From: Treponema sp. Marseille-Q4130
GTDB lineage: Bacteria; Spirochaetota; Spirochaetia; Treponematales; Treponemataceae
NCBI RefSeq assembly: GCF_014334325.1
Contig: NZ_JACSET010000006.1
Span: 33,449-97,448, forward strand
DNA length: 64,000 bases
Direction of reading: 5' to 3'
In this document: positions 6,067 to 44,549 of the stretch, piece by piece
Layout of the letters: every line of letters begins with the position of its first letter
Numbering within the stretch: position 1 is the first letter of the stretch
Position numbers and translations under genes: made by a program
The notes under the pieces: generated by a model
Told to the model about the DNA's origin: nothing
The model's database searches: none
Seen by the model: the letters and a program-made list of their open reading frames with translations, nothing else

Positions 6067-7344
6067 TTATTTATCCCAGCCGTTTTCTTTGATGACGGCG
6101 TCGATTTCTTTTGCAGCTGCGGTAAGCGTTGTTTTCGCATCCGCCCCGTGAATGATATCTCCGGTCGCCGCCTGCATGGCGGTGTAAATGGTCATGTGCG
6201 CGGGTGTAAGCGGTCTGAGTACGGAAATACCCGCTTCAAGCTGTTCGCGGTACAAATATAAGCGCCCGCCTTTTTGCAAAGCTGCAACTTGATCCATAAC
6301 CGATTTTCGAGACGGAATAGCCCCGTTGAAATCGGTAACGATTCGGATATTCGCCGGCTCAAGGCTCATCTGTAAAATCCGCCACACGTCATCCGCGATT
6401 CCGTTTTGCTTTGCAGCGGTCGTCATAGCCCATACGGTCGACCCCGAGCATGTGAATACGCCTTTTCCGAAATTCGGGGGAGGAATGATTATCGCATCGT
6501 CGCCGAGATTTTTTACGTGATCGGTATATTTCCAGTGACCGATGAGCGCAAGCGCGCTTTCTTTTTTTCCGTAAAACGCATCTTCGTAATCGCATCTGCC
6601 GTTGAGATATCCCTGTTTTAAAAGCCACGTAAGATAATCGTACGCCGCAACCGTATTCGGACCGTCAAGCACTCCTTTGGCATGAAGCGTTTTTCTGTCG
6701 ATATAGTCGCCGCCGAAACTTGCAAGGATGGGCATATACGTAAAATACAGCGTCGACGGTTTATTTTGACGTATATAAATCGGATACGGAACTCCGCTCG
6801 CTTTGAGTTTTTTGAGCGCATCTTCAAATTCCGCTTTCGACCACGCTTCTTTATAGCTTACGGGAATACGTACGCCCGCCTTTTGGAGCATCGCTTTATT
6901 TGCCCACAGTCCCATACCCGCATCGAACTGAGCGGTCGAAATAAGTTTTCCCTGATACGTTGATTCGGCAACGACGGATGGGATCAAATCGCTTTTTAAA
7001 GACGCGGGCATATATTTATCGAGCGCTTCAATGAGTCCCGCTTCATAATATGCGGGCATCTGCAGGTAATCGACGATAATCATATCCGGAGCATCTCCCA
7101 CAACGGGAGCCACTTGCAGTTTTCCGTCAAGTTCGTCTTTCGGATAATATTCGTCGCGAATCGTAATGCCCGAAGCGGTTCTGATGGTATCGAAAAGTTT
7201 TCGATACACGCCGTCTTCGGCGCCGCTGGACACCCATACTTTGACAAAATCCTGTTTGCGTTGAACGCCTTCCGTTTGTCCCAATGCCGAGGCGGCAGAT
7301 ACGATCACACTGCCGGCAAGCAAAGCCGCTAACCATCTTTTCAT
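6067..7344 (-). CDS. Extracellular sugar-binding protein of an ABC importer (family 1)
   Basis: 425 residues. I start it at ATG 7344 (MKRWLAALL) because this gives a clean Sec signal peptide ending in ASALG and a strong SD, GGAGGACA, 7 nt upstream; an in-frame ATG 21 bp further upstream lacks both. The mature protein has the usual family-1 layout: KVWVSSG near the start, DMIIVDYLQMP, and LWANKAML-type motifs. It binds a sugar-like ligand in the periplasm or at the outer face of the inner membrane and delivers it to the two permeases downstream. There is no lipobox. The ligand is unknown; the phosphatase genes upstream hint at a phosphorylated sugar or glycerophosphodiester. Confidence 0.88.
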   Translation of the reverse strand: MKRWLAALLAGSVIVSAASALGQTEGVQRKQDFVKVWVSSGAEDGVYRKLFDTIRTASGITIRDEYYPKDELDGKLQVAPVVGDAPDMIIVDYLQMPAYYEAGLIEALDKYMPASLKSDLIPSVVAESTYQGKLISTAQFDAGMGLWANKAMLQKAGVRIPVSYKEAWSKAEFEDALKKLKASGVPYPIYIRQNKPSTLYFTYMPILASFGGDYIDRKTLHAKGVLDGPNTVAAYDYLTWLLKQGYLNGRCDYEDAFYGKKESALALIGHWKYTDHVKNLGDDAIIIPPPNFGKGVFTCSGSTVWAMTTAAKQNGIADDVWRILQMSLEPANIRIVTDFNGAIPSRKSVMDQVAALQKGGRLYLYREQLEAGISVLRPLTPAHMTIYTAMQAATGDIIHGADAKTTLTAAAKEIDAVIKENGWDK

Positions 7345-13876: not shown

Positions 13877-15517
13877 ATGGCAAATACCATTGATAACAAA
13901 AACGAACTCGATAATTACGGTGTCTGGGTAAAGCGGGCTCCAGAATCCGAAGCCCAAAGATCCGGAAGCGATGACGATTTTAATTTCGACATCGATCTGC
14001 CCGATTTTTCCGATATAGACCCGTCCGCGACCGAAAAAGCGCACAACGATACGTCTGCGCTCGAAGACGTCGCTATCGAAGATTTTCTCGACAACGGTTT
14101 TTCAGAGCCCCCCGTCCCCGACGATACTATAGAAACGCTCGCGCCGAACGAAGAAGCCATGCCCGATTTTTTCGGCACGGACGATATGAAAATCGATCCC
14201 GTACAGGATTCCGTGTCGGCAGCAAGCGAACAAACAATCCTCCCCGAACTTCCCGAATCGCCAGATACCGCTTTTGCTCATGACGATACAGTCGTATCTC
14301 CCGAAGCCGCAGTCACCGAAGACGTCGACTTGTCGGATTTCGGGGTCGATTTCAGCGCCGACGAAGCTCCGTCCGATACGCCGTCAACGGGAAGTACGGC
14401 ACCCGCTCAAGCGCAAGCGCCTCGTGTCGATTACGATCTTACCGTTTCCGCCGACGACGGCGCCGTCCCTTCGGTGCAGACAAACGGCGTCCCCGACAGT
14501 TTCGACGAAGAAGCGAAATCGCTCATGGACAATGCGCCGTCTCCGCGAACGGAAAGCAATGACCTTTTGCGGCAAATCGTCGAAGACCTTTCGGGATTAA
14601 AAAACGAAATCTCGACGCTGAAAACGGAATTGGCCGAATTAAAATCACGGGGGGGAACTCCGACGACGGAAACGCAGGCCGGCGGTTTTTTCAGCGATTT
14701 GGACGAAGACGAAACGATTTCGCTTTCGGGCGACGAGCTCGACAATATCATGAGCAGCGCCGATTTTTTGAACAACGAAAGCAAGGTCGATGCGCTCGCA
14801 GAAGAGATAAAAGCTCCCGCAGAAAGTGCGGCGGCGGTCGATCTCCCTGTCGTCCCCGACATCCCCGTCACGGAAAAATCTGCGGAAGAATTTTCGACGG
14901 ACGATTTTTTTATTCCGGAATCCGATGTACTTCCCGAACTTCCGGCGGAACTCGACAGCGTTTCCGAAGAAGCGTCGCTTGAAGAGATTCCCGAAGAAGC
15001 CGAACTTGAAGAACTTCCCGGTGAAGATGTCGATATTCCTGAAGAGACGGCAATTCCGAAAGTCGACGACATCTTAGCCGAAACCGTACCGAGCGAGCCT
15101 GTCGCGGACGTGCAGAATGAGGTTGGAAAAACGGAAATCATCGACGCTGTATCTGAAGACTTTTTCCAAACGGATACGACAACGGTCGATACGACAACAA
15201 CGGATGATTTTTTCAAAACGAATTCGGAGGCGGCAGCGACGCCGGACGATTTTTTCAAAGCCGATTCCGTTGCGGCCGAAGCTGCTCCTGCAGAAGTTGC
15301 GTTTACCGACGCCGAAGAACCCGCGTCAAAAGCGCCTCCCTCTTCCGGATCAGCAGCTTCAAGTCTGCCTGCGAATTTGACCGAAGAAATCAAATCGGTT
15401 CTCCTCTATATGGATCAACTGCTCGAAGATTTGCCTGAAGAAAAGATTGTCGAATTCGCGCGTTCCGAACAATTCGCGACGTATAAAAAGCTGTTTACGG
15501 ATTTGGGATTGGCATAA
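13877..15517 (+). CDS. Large acidic low-complexity protein with DDFF repeats
   Basis: 546 residues, strongly acidic (long runs of Asp, Glu, Ser, Pro and Ala), with no signal peptide and no membrane helix. Short repeats of the type DDFFKT/DDFFKA recur at about residues 435-470, and related D/E-F-F pieces occur elsewhere. Two short ordered segments stand out: LLRQIVEDLSGLKNEISTLK (a coiled coil near 228-250) and a C-terminal helical block, LTEEIKSVLLYMDQLLEDLP, running to the end at 546. The structure suggests a disordered tether between two interaction modules. It heads the operon with the MAF-like genes, so a role in flagellar or envelope organisation is a guess. SD: AGAGGGGA upstream of ATG. 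Confidence 0.8.
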   Translation: MANTIDNKNELDNYGVWVKRAPESEAQRSGSDDDFNFDIDLPDFSDIDPSATEKAHNDTSALEDVAIEDFLDNGFSEPPVPDDTIETLAPNEEAMPDFFGTDDMKIDPVQDSVSAASEQTILPELPESPDTAFAHDDTVVSPEAAVTEDVDLSDFGVDFSADEAPSDTPSTGSTAPAQAQAPRVDYDLTVSADDGAVPSVQTNGVPDSFDEEAKSLMDNAPSPRTESNDLLRQIVEDLSGLKNEISTLKTELAELKSRGGTPTTETQAGGFFSDLDEDETISLSGDELDNIMSSADFLNNESKVDALAEEIKAPAESAAAVDLPVVPDIPVTEKSAEEFSTDDFFIPESDVLPELPAELDSVSEEASLEEIPEEAELEELPGEDVDIPEETAIPKVDDILAETVPSEPVADVQNEVGKTEIIDAVSEDFFQTDTTTVDTTTTDDFFKTNSEAAATPDDFFKADSVAAEAAPAEVAFTDAEEPASKAPPSSGSAASSLPANLTEEIKSVLLYMDQLLEDLPEEKIVEFARSEQFATYKKLFTDLGLA

Positions 15518-32725: not shown

Positions 32726-34224
32726 ACTGAAGCTCCTCTTTCGATTTTTTCACCCGTTGCAAGGCGCATGATCATGTGTTCGTTCATATCCGCCCCGGAC
32801 ACTTCGCCGACAACGGAACCGTGAAACATGACGATCGCCCTGTCGCACACTCTGACGATTTCCTGCGCTTCGCTCGAAAGCACGATGACGGCGACGCCGG
32901 AAGCCGCAAGCTTTTCGATAATTTCATAGATTTCTTCCTTTGCGCCGACATCGACACCCTGCGTCGGATTATCGAGTACAAGGACTTTCGGCTCCGTATT
33001 GAGCCATTTCGAAAGTACGACTTTTTGCTGGTTGCCGCCGGACAGATTCGTAATTAAATCATCTCCGCTTTCCATTTTGATATGCAGATTGCTCACGTGT
33101 TTTTCAAAATCGCGTCTTTCCCGCTTTCGGTCTATAAAACACAGCTTTCGATATTTTGCAAGCGATGCGAGCGAAGCATTTTCAAGAATCGTCATATCTT
33201 TGACGATGGCGTTTTCCTTTCTGTTGCGCGGCAGGTAAGCGACACCTTTTTGTACCGCGTCGGACGTGGATGAAAAGGCCGCTTCTTTTCCGGCAATAAA
33301 GAGTTTTCCGTCCGCAGGCAATCCCGCTTTAAAAATCGATAAAAACAATTCGCTTCTGCCGTCGCCGAGCAATCCCGTTATGCCGAGCACTTCGGATGCG
33401 TGAGCCGAAAAAGAAATATCGTTAAAATGTTTATGATCGCCGTAGCCTTCGACACGGAGCATTTCTTTTCCGCGTACGCAAGCCTTTTTCAAGCCGCCGC
33501 CTGCGATCTTATGACCGACCATATAAAATGCAAGCTCCGCGTTCGTCACGTCCTGCGTTTTTCCCGACGCGACGACTTTACCGTCACGCAGTACCGTATA
33601 GCTCGAACAGATATCGAGCACTTCGCCGAGCTTATGCGAAATAAAAATGATGCCGACGCCCTGAGCCGAAAGATCGCGCATGAGCGCAAAGACACGCCGT
33701 ATTTCCGGTTCCGTCAGAGAAGTCGTCGGTTCATCCATGATGATACAAGATGCATTCATCATCATCGCGCGCGAAATCTCCACGATCTGTTTGTACGACG
33801 CATCGAGACTCCGCACCGGAAGGCAGGGATCGAGCGAGATTCCGATCCTGTCAAAGGTTTGCTTCGTCTTTTCTATCATCGCTTTGCCGTCGAGAAAACC
33901 GTTTTTCTTTTTCAACTCGCGGCCGATAAACATGTTTTCGTAGATCGCCAAATCGTTTATTAAATTCAATTCTTGATGAATAAATGCGATACCCGCATGC
34001 AAAGAATCGACGGGCGAAAAAAATCTCACTTCTTTTCCGTCGACGGCGATGCTTCCGGAATCGGCTTGGATGACGCCGCCGAGGATATTCATCAGCGTCG
34101 ATTTTCCGGCGCCGTTTTCTCCGAGCAGCGCGTGTATTTCACCTGCGTGTACGGAAAAAGATACGCCGTCGAGAACGGCGGCTTTACCGAACGATTTGCA
34201 GATATCCCGCATTTCAACTTTCAT
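32722..34224 (-). CDS. Sugar ABC transporter ATPase, RbsA/MglA type
   Basis: 500 residues with two ABC domains. Domain 1 has Walker A GENGAGKST (34-42), a signature region around LDASYKQIVEIS, and DEPTTSLT. Domain 2 has the degenerate P-loop GLLGDGRSEL (about 290) but a good signature, LSGGNQQKV (about 390), as usual for the CUT2 class. It powers the RbsC-like permease from the cytoplasmic face. It lies 101 bp after the binding-protein gene; the gap contains copy 2 of a palindromic repeat. Confidence 0.94.
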   Translation of the reverse strand: MKVEMRDICKSFGKAAVLDGVSFSVHAGEIHALLGENGAGKSTLMNILGGVIQADSGSIAVDGKEVRFFSPVDSLHAGIAFIHQELNLINDLAIYENMFIGRELKKKNGFLDGKAMIEKTKQTFDRIGISLDPCLPVRSLDASYKQIVEISRAMMMNASCIIMDEPTTSLTEPEIRRVFALMRDLSAQGVGIIFISHKLGEVLDICSSYTVLRDGKVVASGKTQDVTNAELAFYMVGHKIAGGGLKKACVRGKEMLRVEGYGDHKHFNDISFSAHASEVLGITGLLGDGRSELFLSIFKAGLPADGKLFIAGKEAAFSSTSDAVQKGVAYLPRNRKENAIVKDMTILENASLASLAKYRKLCFIDRKRERRDFEKHVSNLHIKMESGDDLITNLSGGNQQKVVLSKWLNTEPKVLVLDNPTQGVDVGAKEEIYEIIEKLAASGVAVIVLSSEAQEIVRVCDRAIVMFHGSVVGEVSGADMNEHMIMRLATGEKIERGASV

Positions 34225-39287: not shown

Positions 39288-42200
39288 ATGTCCATTAAAG
39301 CAAAAGACATGACGATGACTGAACGCAAAGAGCGTGTAGCGCAGCTGGTGAAGCAGTTTAAAGAGAATGAGGCGTTTTATCTTTCCAAAGACTTTGTGGA
39401 AAGCGAAGTGCGCAATAAGTTTATCGATCCGCTGCTTGAATGCCTAAAATGGGATGTCAAAAACGAGAAAGGAGCGCGGCATGACCGGCAGGAGGTCATT
39501 ACCGAAGACCGCGTAGTGATGAACGGGCAGGTGAAGCATCCCGACTATACGCTCTGTTACGGCGGCGAGCGCAAAATGTATGTTGAAGCGAAGCAGCCGA
39601 GCGTTGACCTTAAAACGAATCCCGAACCTGCGCTGCAGGTGCGGAGATATGCGTATACGTCAAAGATGCCTATTGCAGTGCTTACGGACTTTCAGGAATT
39701 GGCAATTTACGATACGCGGATTAAGCCGTCCGAAAAAGACACTGCTTCAACTGCCCGCATTGAGTATCTAACCTACGATAAGCTCACCGAAAATTTTGAA
39801 TCGCTGTACAATAAAATCAGCTGGGATGCCGTTGACCTCGGCACCTTCGATACCTATTACGAAAGCAATAAGGATAAGCGGGGAACGGCGACCGTTGACG
39901 ATGATATTTTGAATATGATCGAAAAATGGCGGATGGAGCTTGCCGAAGATATTGCTCTGCATAACGAAGGAATCGATGAATTCAATTTGACGGGAGCCGT
40001 ACAGAAAATTATAGACCGGATTCTCTTTTTGCGGATTTGTGAAGATAAAGAAATCGAAGAAGGAAATCAGCTTAAAAAAATTGCGGCACAAAAAACGAAT
40101 ATTTATAAAAATGTGCAGAAGCTTTTTGAAAATGCGAATGCTAAATTTAATGCAGGACTGTTTGCTTCCGATACATGGCTTGACGGACTTGCTGTTGCGG
40201 ATAAAACACTTACCAATATTATCAATGCACTCTATTATCCTGAATGTCAGTATGAGTTCAGTGTACTGCCGGTTGAAATATTGGGGTCTATCTATGAGCG
40301 TTTTTTGGGAAAGATTATCCGCTTTACGCGCAAAACAAAAAACGGGCACAGCATAGAAATCCTTGAAAAACCTGAAGTACAAAAAGCAGGCGGGGTGTAT
40401 TATACGCCGCCTTATATCGTTAAATACATCGTTGAAAACACAATCGGTAAAAAGCTTGCAGGCAAAACTCCTGATGAGGTAAAGAGTTTACACTTTGTTG
40501 ATCCTGCATGCGGTTCGGGGAGCTTTCTTGTCGGGGCATATCAGTATCTGCTGGACTGGCACTTGGATCGGTATTATGCGGAAGAGCGGCGTGCACAGGC
40601 GGAAAAGAAGGGGCTTATCTACAAGGATGCAGCAACTCAAGGGTATAAGCTGGGTATTGAAGAGAAAAAGCGCATTTTGCTGAACAATATCTACGGTGTC
40701 GATATCGACGCGCAGGCGGTTGAGGTAACAAAGCTTTCGCTTTTTTTGAAGCTCTTGGAAAATGAAGGCAAGGCACTTTCCGCAACGGGACAGGCGGCAC
40801 TATTCAGAGGGAGCGACATACAGGCAAAAATTTTGCCCGATATGTCGCACAATATTAAATGCGGGAACAGCCTTATCGGAACGGATTATTACGCCGGTAA
40901 AGATTTAACGCTCTTCGGCATCGAGGAGCAGCGCAAGGTGAATGCCTTTGACTGGGATGCGCAGTTCCCTGATGTTTTTGCACACGGCGGTTTTGACTGC
41001 GTGATTGGGAATCCGCCGTATGTAAAAGAGTATACCGATACAGGCTGCTTCGAAGGTTTGCATAATCATCCATGCTATCAAGGAAAAATGGATTTGTGGT
41101 ATTTTTTCGGGTATCAAGGAATTCGCTTTACAAACGAAAACGGCTTAATAGGATTTATCGCACCGAATAATTGGATCACAAATGCCGGCGCTTCCTTGTT
41201 TAGAAACTTTGTATTGGATAATGCAAAGATAGTAACGTATACGGACTTCGGCAATTACAAGGTATTTGAAACCGCCTCAATTCAAACGATGATATACATT
41301 ATGCGAAAAACGCAAATGAATGAGCGGTATTCGGTTGAATATTCTCGGCTGAATAATGACCGTGCCGAACTGTCCGAAGTGCTTGATTTTTTAGCGGGTA
41401 ACGGACAAAAGAATGTAACCCGATTTGAAGCGGAAATTACAAAAGATGCTTGCAAAGACAAATACATTCTCTTTTTGAATAATAAAATTTCTACTGCTCT
41501 CGATTGCATAAAAGAGAGAAGTAATGCAATGCTTACGGAAGACGAAATTGCACAAGGAATTGTAGCGCCACAAGATTTTTGTAATAAAACATCTGCTCTC
41601 ACATTAGGTGATGAAAATCTGCAAGGTACAGGCATATTCAATCTTTCTATGGATGAATATAATGCGCTCAATTTATCGTCCCAAGAAAAGGAGTTGGTAA
41701 AACCTTTTTATACTTCAACAGAGCTGCATAAATATTACGGCAACGAGAATAATAAACTATGGGTGATATATACAACGTCAAAGTTTAAAAATAAAAACGA
41801 AATGAAGCCATATCCGCATCTCAAAGCGCATCTTGATAAATTTATTCCAGTGATTACATCAGATAATAAACCGTATGGGCTGCACCGTGCACGCGAAGAG
41901 CAATTTTTTAAAGGCGAAAAAATCGTTTCATTACGAAAAACAGCGGAGCCGTGTTTTACCTATACTGATTTTGATTGCTATGTTTCACAAAGTTATAATA
42001 TTATTAAATCCGAACGGTTCAATCTTAAATTCTTAACCGCCATATTAAATTCCAATGTGATTAAGTTCTGGCTGCGCTATAAGGGAAAAATGCAAGGGGA
42101 TAACTTTCAGGTAGATAAAGAACCCTTGCTTGGATTACCTTTGATTGTCCCGACAGAAGCGGAGCAGATACATATAAGTGCTTTAGTTGACCAGATGATT

Positions 42201-42353
42201 GCCGCACAGGAACAGCTGGGCAGTGCAATCTCCGATTCTGATAAAAAATTCTTGCAGCAACGAGTTGACATTTTGGATAAGCAGATAAATACTGTTGTTT
42301 ATGGGCTGTACGGGCTGACAGAGGAAGAGATAAAAGTGGTGGAGGGGGAGTAG
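39288..42353 (+). CDS. Type IIG restriction-modification enzyme (nuclease plus N6-adenine methyltransferase)
   Basis: 1021 residues in one chain. Residues about 30-130 are a PD-(D/E)xK nuclease domain of the HsdR_N kind: PDYTL with Asp86, then VEAK with Glu100 and Lys102. A helical linker follows. The methyltransferase has motif I DPACGSGSF (about 404-412) and motif IV NPPY (574-577), the gamma-class N6-adenine order. The C-terminal 350 residues are a TaqI/Eco57I-like target-recognition region. Such enzymes both methylate and cut DNA with SAM. Base composition is clearly more AT-rich than the neighbours, which suggests transfer. SD: GAGGA. Confidence 0.88.
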   Translation: MSIKAKDMTMTERKERVAQLVKQFKENEAFYLSKDFVESEVRNKFIDPLLECLKWDVKNEKGARHDRQEVITEDRVVMNGQVKHPDYTLCYGGERKMYVEAKQPSVDLKTNPEPALQVRRYAYTSKMPIAVLTDFQELAIYDTRIKPSEKDTASTARIEYLTYDKLTENFESLYNKISWDAVDLGTFDTYYESNKDKRGTATVDDDILNMIEKWRMELAEDIALHNEGIDEFNLTGAVQKIIDRILFLRICEDKEIEEGNQLKKIAAQKTNIYKNVQKLFENANAKFNAGLFASDTWLDGLAVADKTLTNIINALYYPECQYEFSVLPVEILGSIYERFLGKIIRFTRKTKNGHSIEILEKPEVQKAGGVYYTPPYIVKYIVENTIGKKLAGKTPDEVKSLHFVDPACGSGSFLVGAYQYLLDWHLDRYYAEERRAQAEKKGLIYKDAATQGYKLGIEEKKRILLNNIYGVDIDAQAVEVTKLSLFLKLLENEGKALSATGQAALFRGSDIQAKILPDMSHNIKCGNSLIGTDYYAGKDLTLFGIEEQRKVNAFDWDAQFPDVFAHGGFDCVIGNPPYVKEYTDTGCFEGLHNHPCYQGKMDLWYFFGYQGIRFTNENGLIGFIAPNNWITNAGASLFRNFVLDNAKIVTYTDFGNYKVFETASIQTMIYIMRKTQMNERYSVEYSRLNNDRAELSEVLDFLAGNGQKNVTRFEAEITKDACKDKYILFLNNKISTALDCIKERSNAMLTEDEIAQGIVAPQDFCNKTSALTLGDENLQGTGIFNLSMDEYNALNLSSQEKELVKPFYTSTELHKYYGNENNKLWVIYTTSKFKNKNEMKPYPHLKAHLDKFIPVITSDNKPYGLHRAREEQFFKGEKIVSLRKTAEPCFTYTDFDCYVSQSYNIIKSERFNLKFLTAILNSNVIKFWLRYKGKMQGDNFQVDKEPLLGLPLIVPTEAEQIHISALVDQMIAAQEQLGSAISDSDKKFLQQRVDILDKQINTVVYGLYGLTEEEIKVVEGE

Positions 42354-42355
42354 AG

Positions 42356-43378
42356 ATGGTAGGAGAAACTAATACTGTAGAATTACATTATTACTTTTCT
42401 GATAAAGAACATAAAATAGATGCCTTCATTGAGAATCAATGTGAGCATGAATTACTTACATTGATGAAAGAAATTTCTGCTTATTTCGAAATAGATATCT
42501 TATTTGAAACTGGTCTCACGAAAGAAGGTGGTTTCAGAAAGTTTTTTCACTTAACACCGAATAATTTATCAGAAAAAGAAAAGAAAAAAATTAGAATAGA
42601 AATAAGGATAAGTGTTTGTGTAGTACTTATTGCAAATATTATAGTACAACCACTTGCAATTCCGATAACAGAGACTATCAAATATGCTGTATCTAAAATG
42701 CTCGAAGATAAGGAAATAAAAGAACTTGAGAAAGAAAAACTAAAAGAGGAAGTGAAAGCATTAAAACTCGATAATGAAAAACGGCTGCGGGATATAGAAG
42801 AGAATGAGAAAATAAAAATAAGCCGTTCTAATTTTTATGAAACATTACACAATTACGAGCGATTAGATCATATTGAGTTTTCAGCAGATGATGAATCTGA
42901 GAATAAGGTGGTTGGATATGGTAAAATTCCAAAAAGCGATTTTAAAAAATATATACTCAATAAGGAAGCTTTAACTGATAAAATAATTGAGAATGCAACA
43001 ATTACTATTGTTTCACCAGTTCTAACAAAAATAAACAAAAATATAAAATGGAGAGGCTTTTATAATGGAGAGCTGATAACATTAACGATGAAATCGGAAG
43101 AATTTATTACCAGTATAGATGAAGGTCTTATTGAATTTAAAAAAGGATTTACAATTACTTGTAATTTAAGAATAGAACGTGAAAAAATGAAAACAGGAGA
43201 AGAAAAACGAATATATATTGTTACAGAAGTTATAAGCTATATTATCAATGAAAAAGAATTGGAAACACTTGAAGGAAAAAGATATAAACAGCTAAAGAAA
43301 GAGAAAGAGGCTATTCAATATTTACCTTTTGATGAATTCCCAAATAATAAAATAGTGGAAAAGAATGATCTTGAGTAA
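42356..43378 (+). CDS. Membrane and coiled-coil protein of unknown family, partner of the R-M gene
   Basis: 340 residues in a very AT-rich gene. Residues 1-75 form a small alpha/beta domain with LHYYFSDKEHKIDAFIENQCEHELL and a KEGGF turn. A hydrophobic stretch follows at about 79-102 (ISVCVVLIANIIVQPLAIPI), then a charged coiled coil (about 112-160), then a beta-rich C-terminal domain with a VVGYGKIPKSDF start. Two bases separate it from the R-M stop, so the two are translationally coupled. I have no family name. A membrane-anchored sensor or effector for phage defence fits the layout, but this is inference. Confidence 0.7.
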   Translation: MVGETNTVELHYYFSDKEHKIDAFIENQCEHELLTLMKEISAYFEIDILFETGLTKEGGFRKFFHLTPNNLSEKEKKKIRIEIRISVCVVLIANIIVQPLAIPITETIKYAVSKMLEDKEIKELEKEKLKEEVKALKLDNEKRLRDIEENEKIKISRSNFYETLHNYERLDHIEFSADDESENKVVGYGKIPKSDFKKYILNKEALTDKIIENATITIVSPVLTKINKNIKWRGFYNGELITLTMKSEEFITSIDEGLIEFKKGFTITCNLRIEREKMKTGEEKRIYIVTEVISYIINEKELETLEGKRYKQLKKEKEAIQYLPFDEFPNNKIVEKNDLE

Positions 43379-43464
43379 ACAGACAATTAGCAAACTACGT
43401 GAAAGTATAAATGAAGTATCAAAATATCATTCTAGTTATACGAATTACAAGGAGGCCATCCCCA

Positions 43465-43689
43465 ATGTCTTACGAAACAGTTATTGAACAAGTAAAAATG
43501 CTGCCGGAATCGCTATTAGCGCCGGTTTCGGCTTTTATCAAACTGCTTGAAGCGGAGCAAGGTGATTTCATGGGAAATCATGCCGAGCAAATAAAATCCA
43601 AAAACAAACAAGCCTTTTTTGCATTAGCTGGGAAAATTCACCTTGATCAAGACACAGTTACCGAATTAAGGGAGGCGAGCTTGATATGA
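43465..43689 (+). CDS. Antitoxin of a VapBC-like pair
   Basis: 74 residues from ATG 43465; SD GGAGG is 9 nt upstream. I reject the longer frame from 43411. The text YETVIEQVKMLPESLLAPVSAFIKLLE resembles short DUF2281-type antitoxins. It should bind and neutralise the PIN-domain protein encoded next, and may repress the operon. The stop overlaps the toxin start by 4 bp. Confidence 0.7.
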   Translation: MSYETVIEQVKMLPESLLAPVSAFIKLLEAEQGDFMGNHAEQIKSKNKQAFFALAGKIHLDQDTVTELREASLI

Positions 43690-44071
43690 TTTTGGCAGAT
43701 ACAACTATTATCATAGATTTTTGGAATAAGCCTGCGGTCGCTGCTGAAAAATATTTTCAGAAAATGATATTGCAATTTGCGGTGTCATCAAAACGGAGCT
43801 TTTACGCGGGAGTCAATCGGCTGATGATTTTGCACAAATACAAATGTCCCTTGCAGATTTTTATTATTTGAATTTTGCAGAAAATGATTGGGTTGCACTT
43901 GCAAAACAGTTTATAACACTTAAGAAGCATGGACTTGTTGTTCCGTTTCAAGATGCTATGATTGCGTTTCTTGCAATAAAATATGATTGCGAGGTTTGGA
44001 CAAACGATAAACATTTTAAACTGATGCAAACGGCTATTCCTCAACTCAAACTTTTTTCCCCGAGAAAATAA
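43686..44071 (+). pseudogene. VapC-like PIN-domain toxin, frameshifted
   Basis: A PIN RNase gene split by one missing base. It starts at 43686 with ADTTIIIDFW, with Asp5 and Asp11, and reads to KYFQK. The PIN continuation, NDIAICGVIKTELLRGSQ and then MSLADFYY..., is in another frame from about 43763. It keeps the later acidic residues in PFQDAMIA and TNDKHF. The break is in an A run (43761-43764): one extra A would restore a 129-residue VapC. Options are a real inactivating deletion, slippage during expression, or a sequencing error. Active VapC enzymes cut tRNAs or rRNA. AT-rich like its neighbours. Confidence 0.8.
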
Positions 44072-44549
44072 ATAATCGCTGCTATTGCAGTCTTTGATCG
44101 TTCTTTAAAATTGTACAACGAATAAATCTTCATATCCCCTAGAAGAGATTTAACAGATACGCCTTGCGCACGAAAGCACCGCACCCACCCACATAAATAT
44201 GTTACAACATCGCATATTTATACAATCACATCATTCGATAAAAATCATCCGGAACCTCTCAAAACAGGTCGATTTTCCGCATTTTTTTGCAAATTTGCAA
44301 CAAAAATTATTAATTTTCGATACTGTAATATTGCATAAATATACGGTTTTGCGAAATTCTTTGCGGCGGGTATCTGCATTTACGACTTCAGCATTGAAAA
44401 CCTATATCCCTCCGCTTCGAACAAGAGCATCGACTCTGTACTCGACTATCTTTTTTTCCGTATTTTTGTTAAAGTAATGCGCATAAGCGCAGGCGCACAG
44501 CCGTTTTGCAAACGCTTCACATTTTATCGTATCGATTCCGAGGTATTTT
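44072..44549. other. Gene-free AT-rich stretch between the defence island and pgi
   Basis: No ORF is convincing on either strand. It holds a perfect 9-bp inverted repeat, ATAAATATG (44193-44201) and CATATTTAT (44213-44221). Minus-strand frames near 44430-44520 have a short protein-like stretch broken by stops, possibly a decayed gene. I find no good promoter for pgi. Confidence 0.5.

Follow-up and report, generated by a model that had tools for sequence, protein, structure and literature searches.

Additional genes in restriction–modification loci

It is known that defence genes can be embedded in restriction–modification (R-M) operons, and the PDC families are candidates put forward by such guilt by embedding, most of which are unvalidated (PMC12988326). 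Several described systems come close to this arrangement. In Campylobacter, extra open reading frames (ORFs), the rlo genes, lie within the hsd loci (PMC5183652 and PMC2928727), and PrrC and the R-M guardian systems, in which a gene is embedded in an R-M locus, have been proposed as a second line of defence (PMC12707154). ShdA of Shield, a product of Type I R-M operons, has a membrane helix and a coiled coil (PMC11090510), and in the RptR-RMS-DarTG2 island, which is active against phages, the cargo DarTG2 sits between hsdS and hsdR (PMC12255303). In the present study we analysed a gene pair in a stretch of 64,000 nucleotides from Treponema sp. Marseille-Q4130 (NZ_JACSET010000006.1, positions 33,449–97,448; hereafter the window), in which the gene for a Type IIG restriction endonuclease-methyltransferase (IIG; 1021 aa; 39288–42353) is followed by that for a 340 aa protein of the PDC-S42 family (42356–43378), both genes and all of their parts described below lying on the + strand.

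Our preferred explanation, to which we give an even chance, is that PDC-S42 is cargo on the Type IIG gene, that the 3′ end of this gene is a plug-in site used by several candidate defence genes, PDC-S42 among them, and that the protein has an accessory, second-line role against phages. What we observed is the family match, the adjacency, the recurrence of PDC-S42 beside unrelated R-M genes, the presence of different genes behind near-identical IIG genes, whose homology does not extend past the stop codon, and the predicted architecture of the protein.

Identity of the two genes

The first-pass annotation, made from the DNA letters alone, had called the first gene a Type IIG enzyme, and this call is sound. 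HSDR_N (residues 37–146), Eco57I, N6_Mtase and TaqI_C all score above their Pfam cut-offs, and the PADLOC model REase_MTase_IIG (PDLC03604) matches with an E value of 1.9e-180. The nuclease, the N6-adenine methyltransferase domains and the target recognition domain (TaqI_C) are all found in one chain, together with DPACGSGSF and NPPY, which we take to be the methylase motifs, and the product is a predicted Type IIG enzyme with an intact gene. In four other loci (L184, L185, L187 and L188; L and G numbers are our handles for loci and genomes) the best matches to this enzyme end near residue 670–700 of 1021 and their frames continue, as if IIG specificity domains had been exchanged.

The spacing and composition given in the first-pass annotation were also reproduced, in that the IIG stop and the PDC-S42 start are separated by 2 bases (42354–42355) and the second gene is the more AT-rich. 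The GC content is 0.444 in the first 2 kb of the IIG gene, 0.378 in its last 1 kb and 0.281 in the PDC-S42 gene, compared with 0.495 for the window, the fall starting already within the IIG gene. The PDC-S42 gene is present as a single copy in this genome.

The description of the second protein as undescribed and of unknown family had to be given up: the PADLOC model PDC-S42 (PDLC05016) spans residues 4–321 of 340 with an E value of 7.8e-85 and matches all 70 aligned relatives (alignment A2) as well. The PDC candidates reportedly originate from a preprint by Payne et al. in 2024, and no paper with the term PDC-S42 was found in the literature searched. No Pfam family scored above its cut-off in the window protein, and at E 0.1 none was found in more than three of the 70 relatives. 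ATPase and anticodon nuclease domains were absent from the window protein (Pfam, E up to 1) and were not among the 25 families listed, of 48 in all, for the 70 relatives, and an RmuC-like nuclease domain was likewise found neither in the window protein (Pfam) nor among those 25 families. The PDC-S42 model also matches in one of 14 control genomes, that of Bacillus subtilis.

A phage origin was considered in this context, namely that the gene is a prophage remnant encoding a phage structural protein of the LAPAL family. The NCBIfam model NF053583 (LAPAL_fam) gives 54.5 bits with the window protein, PHROG 3243 matches with 9.4e-5, and relatives with the same layout occur on two viral contigs. 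However, the former score falls short of the curated cut-off (60 bits), a search of 50,697 phage records gave no match at E 1e-3, and the viral relative is accompanied by an integrase and an R-M system of the BamHI type; we regard this origin as very improbable.

Genes behind the Type IIG stop codon

The view of PDC-S42 as exchangeable cargo draws on a survey of what lies behind related IIG genes. Relatives of the window's enzyme at E 1e-60 or better are present in 15 of the 105 genomes of its family and, besides the window, L014 and L013, we surveyed 13 regions from 11 of these 15 genomes, G362 with its two partial matches being left out. PDC-S42 was found in none of the 13 regions. In G111, whose IIG enzyme is 97% identical with that of the window, a 1085 aa KAP NTPase with partial matches to QatA and PifA lies 7 bp behind the IIG gene, and in G126 a gene of the KAP kind, judged by eye, lies behind an IIG frame that ends early. 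At one site in G1921 a split IIG gene is followed after 2 bp by the gene for a PDC-S49 KAP protein, of which the second G126 site has a split look-alike, and the other G1921 site has a broken PDC-S06 gene 140 bp behind its IIG gene. G282 carries a 62 aa ORF and, another 83 bp on, RhuM (PDC-S05), and G1916 two ORFs without a family, which start 129 bp behind the IIG gene. No gene is obvious behind the IIG genes of G173 and G230; G275 and G116 have fragments, and the IIG genes of G268 and G352 are distant.

At the DNA level the IIG genes of the window and G111 are 96% identical, and their last 30 bases agree at 23 positions, whereas the 30 bases that directly follow the stop agree at 9; identity also drops after the stop in G1916 (6/30) and G173 (11/30). 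Judged from the other candidate defence genes at this spot in some close relatives of the enzyme, the IIG 3′ end may be a plug-in site for exchangeable genes. No description of an exchangeable slot behind IIG genes was found in the literature within reach, which leaves out preprints and most subscription papers.

The last IIG codons may themselves contribute to such a site, as GGAGGGGGAG (42341–42350) is placed where it could guide ribosomes to the start of PDC-S42. The ending GTGGAGGGGGAG TAG is common to the window, G173 and both G1921 sites, and near versions occur in G111, G1916, L014 and G230 (same or near in 8 of 12 IIG ends); it is not present in the second G126 site, G282 or L018, and the early-stop frame of G126 is not comparable. 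This GGAGG-type stretch could act as a built-in ribosome-binding site for a gene landing right behind the stop, although its conservation alone proves nothing, because the stretch is coding sequence.

Two further elements of the surroundings were recorded. A VapB/VapC-like toxin-antitoxin pair with weak family matches lies at 43411–44071, the VapC frame being split into two ORFs that overlap. The sequence at 44145–44350, adjoining pgi (named by eye), is present twice in G111 (L180, reverse complement, 7158–7316 and 14023–14231), where the copies flank the IIG-KAP island on both sides, and a 75% copy is found elsewhere in the window's genome.

Recurrence of PDC-S42 beside unrelated R-M systems

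Relatives of PDC-S42 were sampled without regard to neighbourhood, with matches counted at E 0.001 or better. Five draws were made, from the window's phylum (7 of 392 genomes matching) and around the Gelidibacter genome G393 (7/395), the Helicobacter genome G396 (23/298), a Lachnospiraceae genome (2/398) and an Alloalcanivorax genome (7/398). With the five centre genomes and 15 weak matches excluded (2, 3, 8, 1 and 1 in draw order, G455 and G1240 among them), 26 strong draws from four of the five were kept. In addition, a scan with one peptide pattern gave at least 80 loci, of which 77 were used, L050, L054 and L085 having no called family ORF; the positional gene count also omits L010, L011, L068, L081 and L097 (repeats or other collections).

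An R-M gene was located on the same strand, at most four genes away, in 14 of the 26 draws (phylum 2/4, Gelidibacter 1/3, Helicobacter 9/14, Alloalcanivorax 2/5), which bears out the first-pass suggestion of a defence candidate tied to restriction, and in 10 of the 77 pattern-scan loci among the matches listed. By distance from PDC-S42, 56 of 759 genes at up to four positions were R-M genes, compared with 1 of 745 at six or more positions, a test that is partly circular because the R-M models were built from eight loci of the same set; the key R-M neighbours were independently confirmed by Pfam. That the adjacency in the window arose by chance is extremely unlikely: in its own phylum only two of the four strong draws have R-M neighbours, in one case a broken IIG gene, but linkage holds for 14 of the 26 draws overall, with unrelated partners and with the distance comparison as control.

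Nine of the 14 R-M-linked draws (L134, L137, L138, L141–L145 and L158, the hsdS pieces of L142 being recognized by eye) are of Type I: HsdM or HsdS precedes PDC-S42 and HsdR follows it, at a distance of up to four or five genes. In 8 of the 14 draws from Campylobacterota PDC-S42 precedes hsdR, and in the scan loci L016, L017, L023, L026 and L077 it lies between hsdS and hsdR, with other genes partly intervening. HsdR is nine genes from PDC-S42 in L130, the order in L133 is hsdR, hsdS, an unknown gene, hsdM and PDC-S42, L159 is cut by the contig end, and in L019 a partial HsdS precedes PDC-S42 by three genes. Further defence-type genes share these R-M operons, namely, among the genes between hsdS and hsdR, DUF1016 and AbiH (L016) and a Schlafen AlbA_2 protein (L026), and elsewhere Abi_2 (L159), a HerA-like gene (L158) and an OLD-like gene (L130). 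Type IIG partners were found in the window, L014 and L018, with MmeI-type enzymes in L063 and L082 and a TaqI_C domain tail, below the Pfam cut-off, just upstream in L027. On the viral contig L096 the partner is a Type IIP system: BamHI and a methyltransferase precede PDC-S42, an integrase follows it, and L097 shares this layout.

The HsdR partners fall into five groups with at most 33% identity between groups, and the other IIG partners share 56, 27, 24 and 22% identity with the window's enzyme over the aligned part, the last two being of the MmeI type. Counted by starred branches, the tree requires R-M linkage to have changed seven times or more, gains and losses not being told apart. Such unrelated partners suggest that PDC-S42 was recruited repeatedly.

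Two of these loci hold additional genes. In L014 (1809–13598) the IIG gene and PDC-S42 are accompanied by an S8 subtilase, an AAA-type ORF and SIR2-like and HerA-like genes, the last three being named by eye, and the stretch is likely to be a defence island. L013 (7003–12821) holds a fragment of a related IIG gene, then an ORF that by eye resembles a transposase, then a PDC-S42 gene belonging to another branch, and also the gene for a TIR/SEFIR protein.

The same diversity would also fit a defence gene that works on its own, with R-M loci as a mere vehicle and no interaction with restriction, which we hold to be possible though not probable. The partners, being of Type I, Type IIG (both Eco57I and MmeI kinds) and Type IIP, lack any one common subunit, and other copies have no R-M neighbours. 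However, a same-strand upstream gene with a gap of 30 bp or less was found in 18 of 24 R-M-linked loci, compared with 17 of 71 others, and these short gaps, together with the position ahead of hsdR in Type I operons, suggest that co-expression matters. The R-M-linked copies in L023, L137, L141 and L145 seem to be short or broken.

Copies away from R-M genes

Other observations weigh against a function of PDC-S42 in defence alone. No R-M gene was listed within four genes in 67 of the 77 scan loci, some on short contigs and with only R-M genes counted, a DUF2148-type gene is common to 17 loci, all 14 of those listed being from Parabacteroides, and the Vibrio copies sit in a common transporter neighbourhood. 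In addition, the seven R-M-linked PDC-S42 genes measured have a GC content of 0.26–0.29, and this is weak evidence of mobility because five of the seven lie in AT-rich loci (0.32–0.36). The first-pass annotation had named a wide spread outside defence islands as evidence against its proposal; the loci without R-M genes and the fixed Parabacteroides and Vibrio neighbourhoods do point that way in part, but a count of R-M genes does not cover defence islands of other kinds. The alternatives are that some members of the family are resident defence genes or that it serves a second purpose.

The fixed neighbourhoods would also suit a general cell function, related to nucleic acids or the envelope, that R-M loci have acquired, for instance as a way of tuning restriction or limiting self-damage. 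As the slot is shared with other defence candidates and PDC-S42 is recurrently present in R-M operons, we consider such a function unlikely, the GC values not being decisive.

Among the copies without R-M genes, that in L139 lies beside KilA-N and PDC-S06 and that in L136 beside RhuM. In L025 (7754–9958; Bacteroidales) a CHAT-domain protein is encoded 12 bp upstream of PDC-S42.

Predicted architecture and proposed role

The AlphaFold2 model of the window protein (mean predicted local distance difference test score 86.2) agrees with the layout given in the first-pass annotation of a small N-terminal domain, a hydrophobic stretch, helices and a beta domain. The structure models predict an N-terminal beta-alpha-beta-beta domain at residues 1–68 (42356–42559), for which structure comparison gave no clear match. 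Residues 78–117 (42587–42706) are predicted to form two helices, the first of which is hydrophobic and a possible membrane segment by hydropathy and the models; in the N-terminal model residues 73–117 appear as a single long helix. This stretch has a Kyte–Doolittle value of 2.22 from residue 87 and varies across the family, a value of 1.6 being attained anywhere in 46 of the 70 aligned members and between residues 50 and 130 in 43. Two more helices, the first long, follow at residues 123–165 (42722–42850) and look coiled-coil-like by eye, and residues 170–309 (42863–43282) form a predicted C-terminal beta domain, the core of which (205–309) resembles OB folds (SSB, RPA, HIN and the anticodon-binding domain of LysRS) in model comparison.

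In the role that we propose, PDC-S42 would be an accessory to restriction and a second line against phages. Its OB-like domain might sense nucleic acid, or protein on nucleic acid, when a phage infects or restriction is blocked, and its N-terminal domain might, together with the hydrophobic helix, deliver the response, perhaps at the membrane. The first-pass annotation had likewise suggested a membrane partner that could act upon failure of restriction. A broader proposal, which we put forward tentatively and as unlikely, is that R-M genes are a modular chassis, with an IIG end that carries its own ribosome-binding site and takes exchangeable effectors, and that PDC-S42, as a one-protein sensor-effector with an OB reader and a hydrophobic helix, is a back-up for blocked restriction recruited by several unrelated R-M classes. 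With a 97% identical IIG enzyme carrying other cargo (G111) and a related one with no obvious gene behind it (G173), the share of the cargo in defence is measurable and, if the slot idea is true, genes behind IIG stop codons would form a short list of new defence candidates.

Comparison with described systems

The rlo genes resemble PDC-S42 as extra ORFs in hsd loci, in keeping with its place ahead of hsdR in Campylobacterota, whereas the window copy lies behind an IIG enzyme. The PrrC guardians share with it the location within an R-M locus, but the window protein has no ATPase or anticodon nuclease domain by Pfam. ShdA of Shield differs in that PDC-S42 is predicted to end in an OB-like domain and lacks, in the window protein, a detectable RmuC-like nuclease domain. 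In RptR-RMS-DarTG2 the position of defence cargo between hsdS and hsdR is similar, but that cargo is a toxin-antitoxin pair. With the PADLOC family PDC-S42, already listed as a defence candidate, the window protein agrees both in the match over nearly its whole length and in the embedding in R-M operons, and no difference was found. To this the present analysis adds the slot at the IIG 3′ end, where different genes follow near-identical IIG genes and similarity breaks off at the stop codon, the occurrence of the family beside unrelated R-M classes, and the predicted OB-like architecture.
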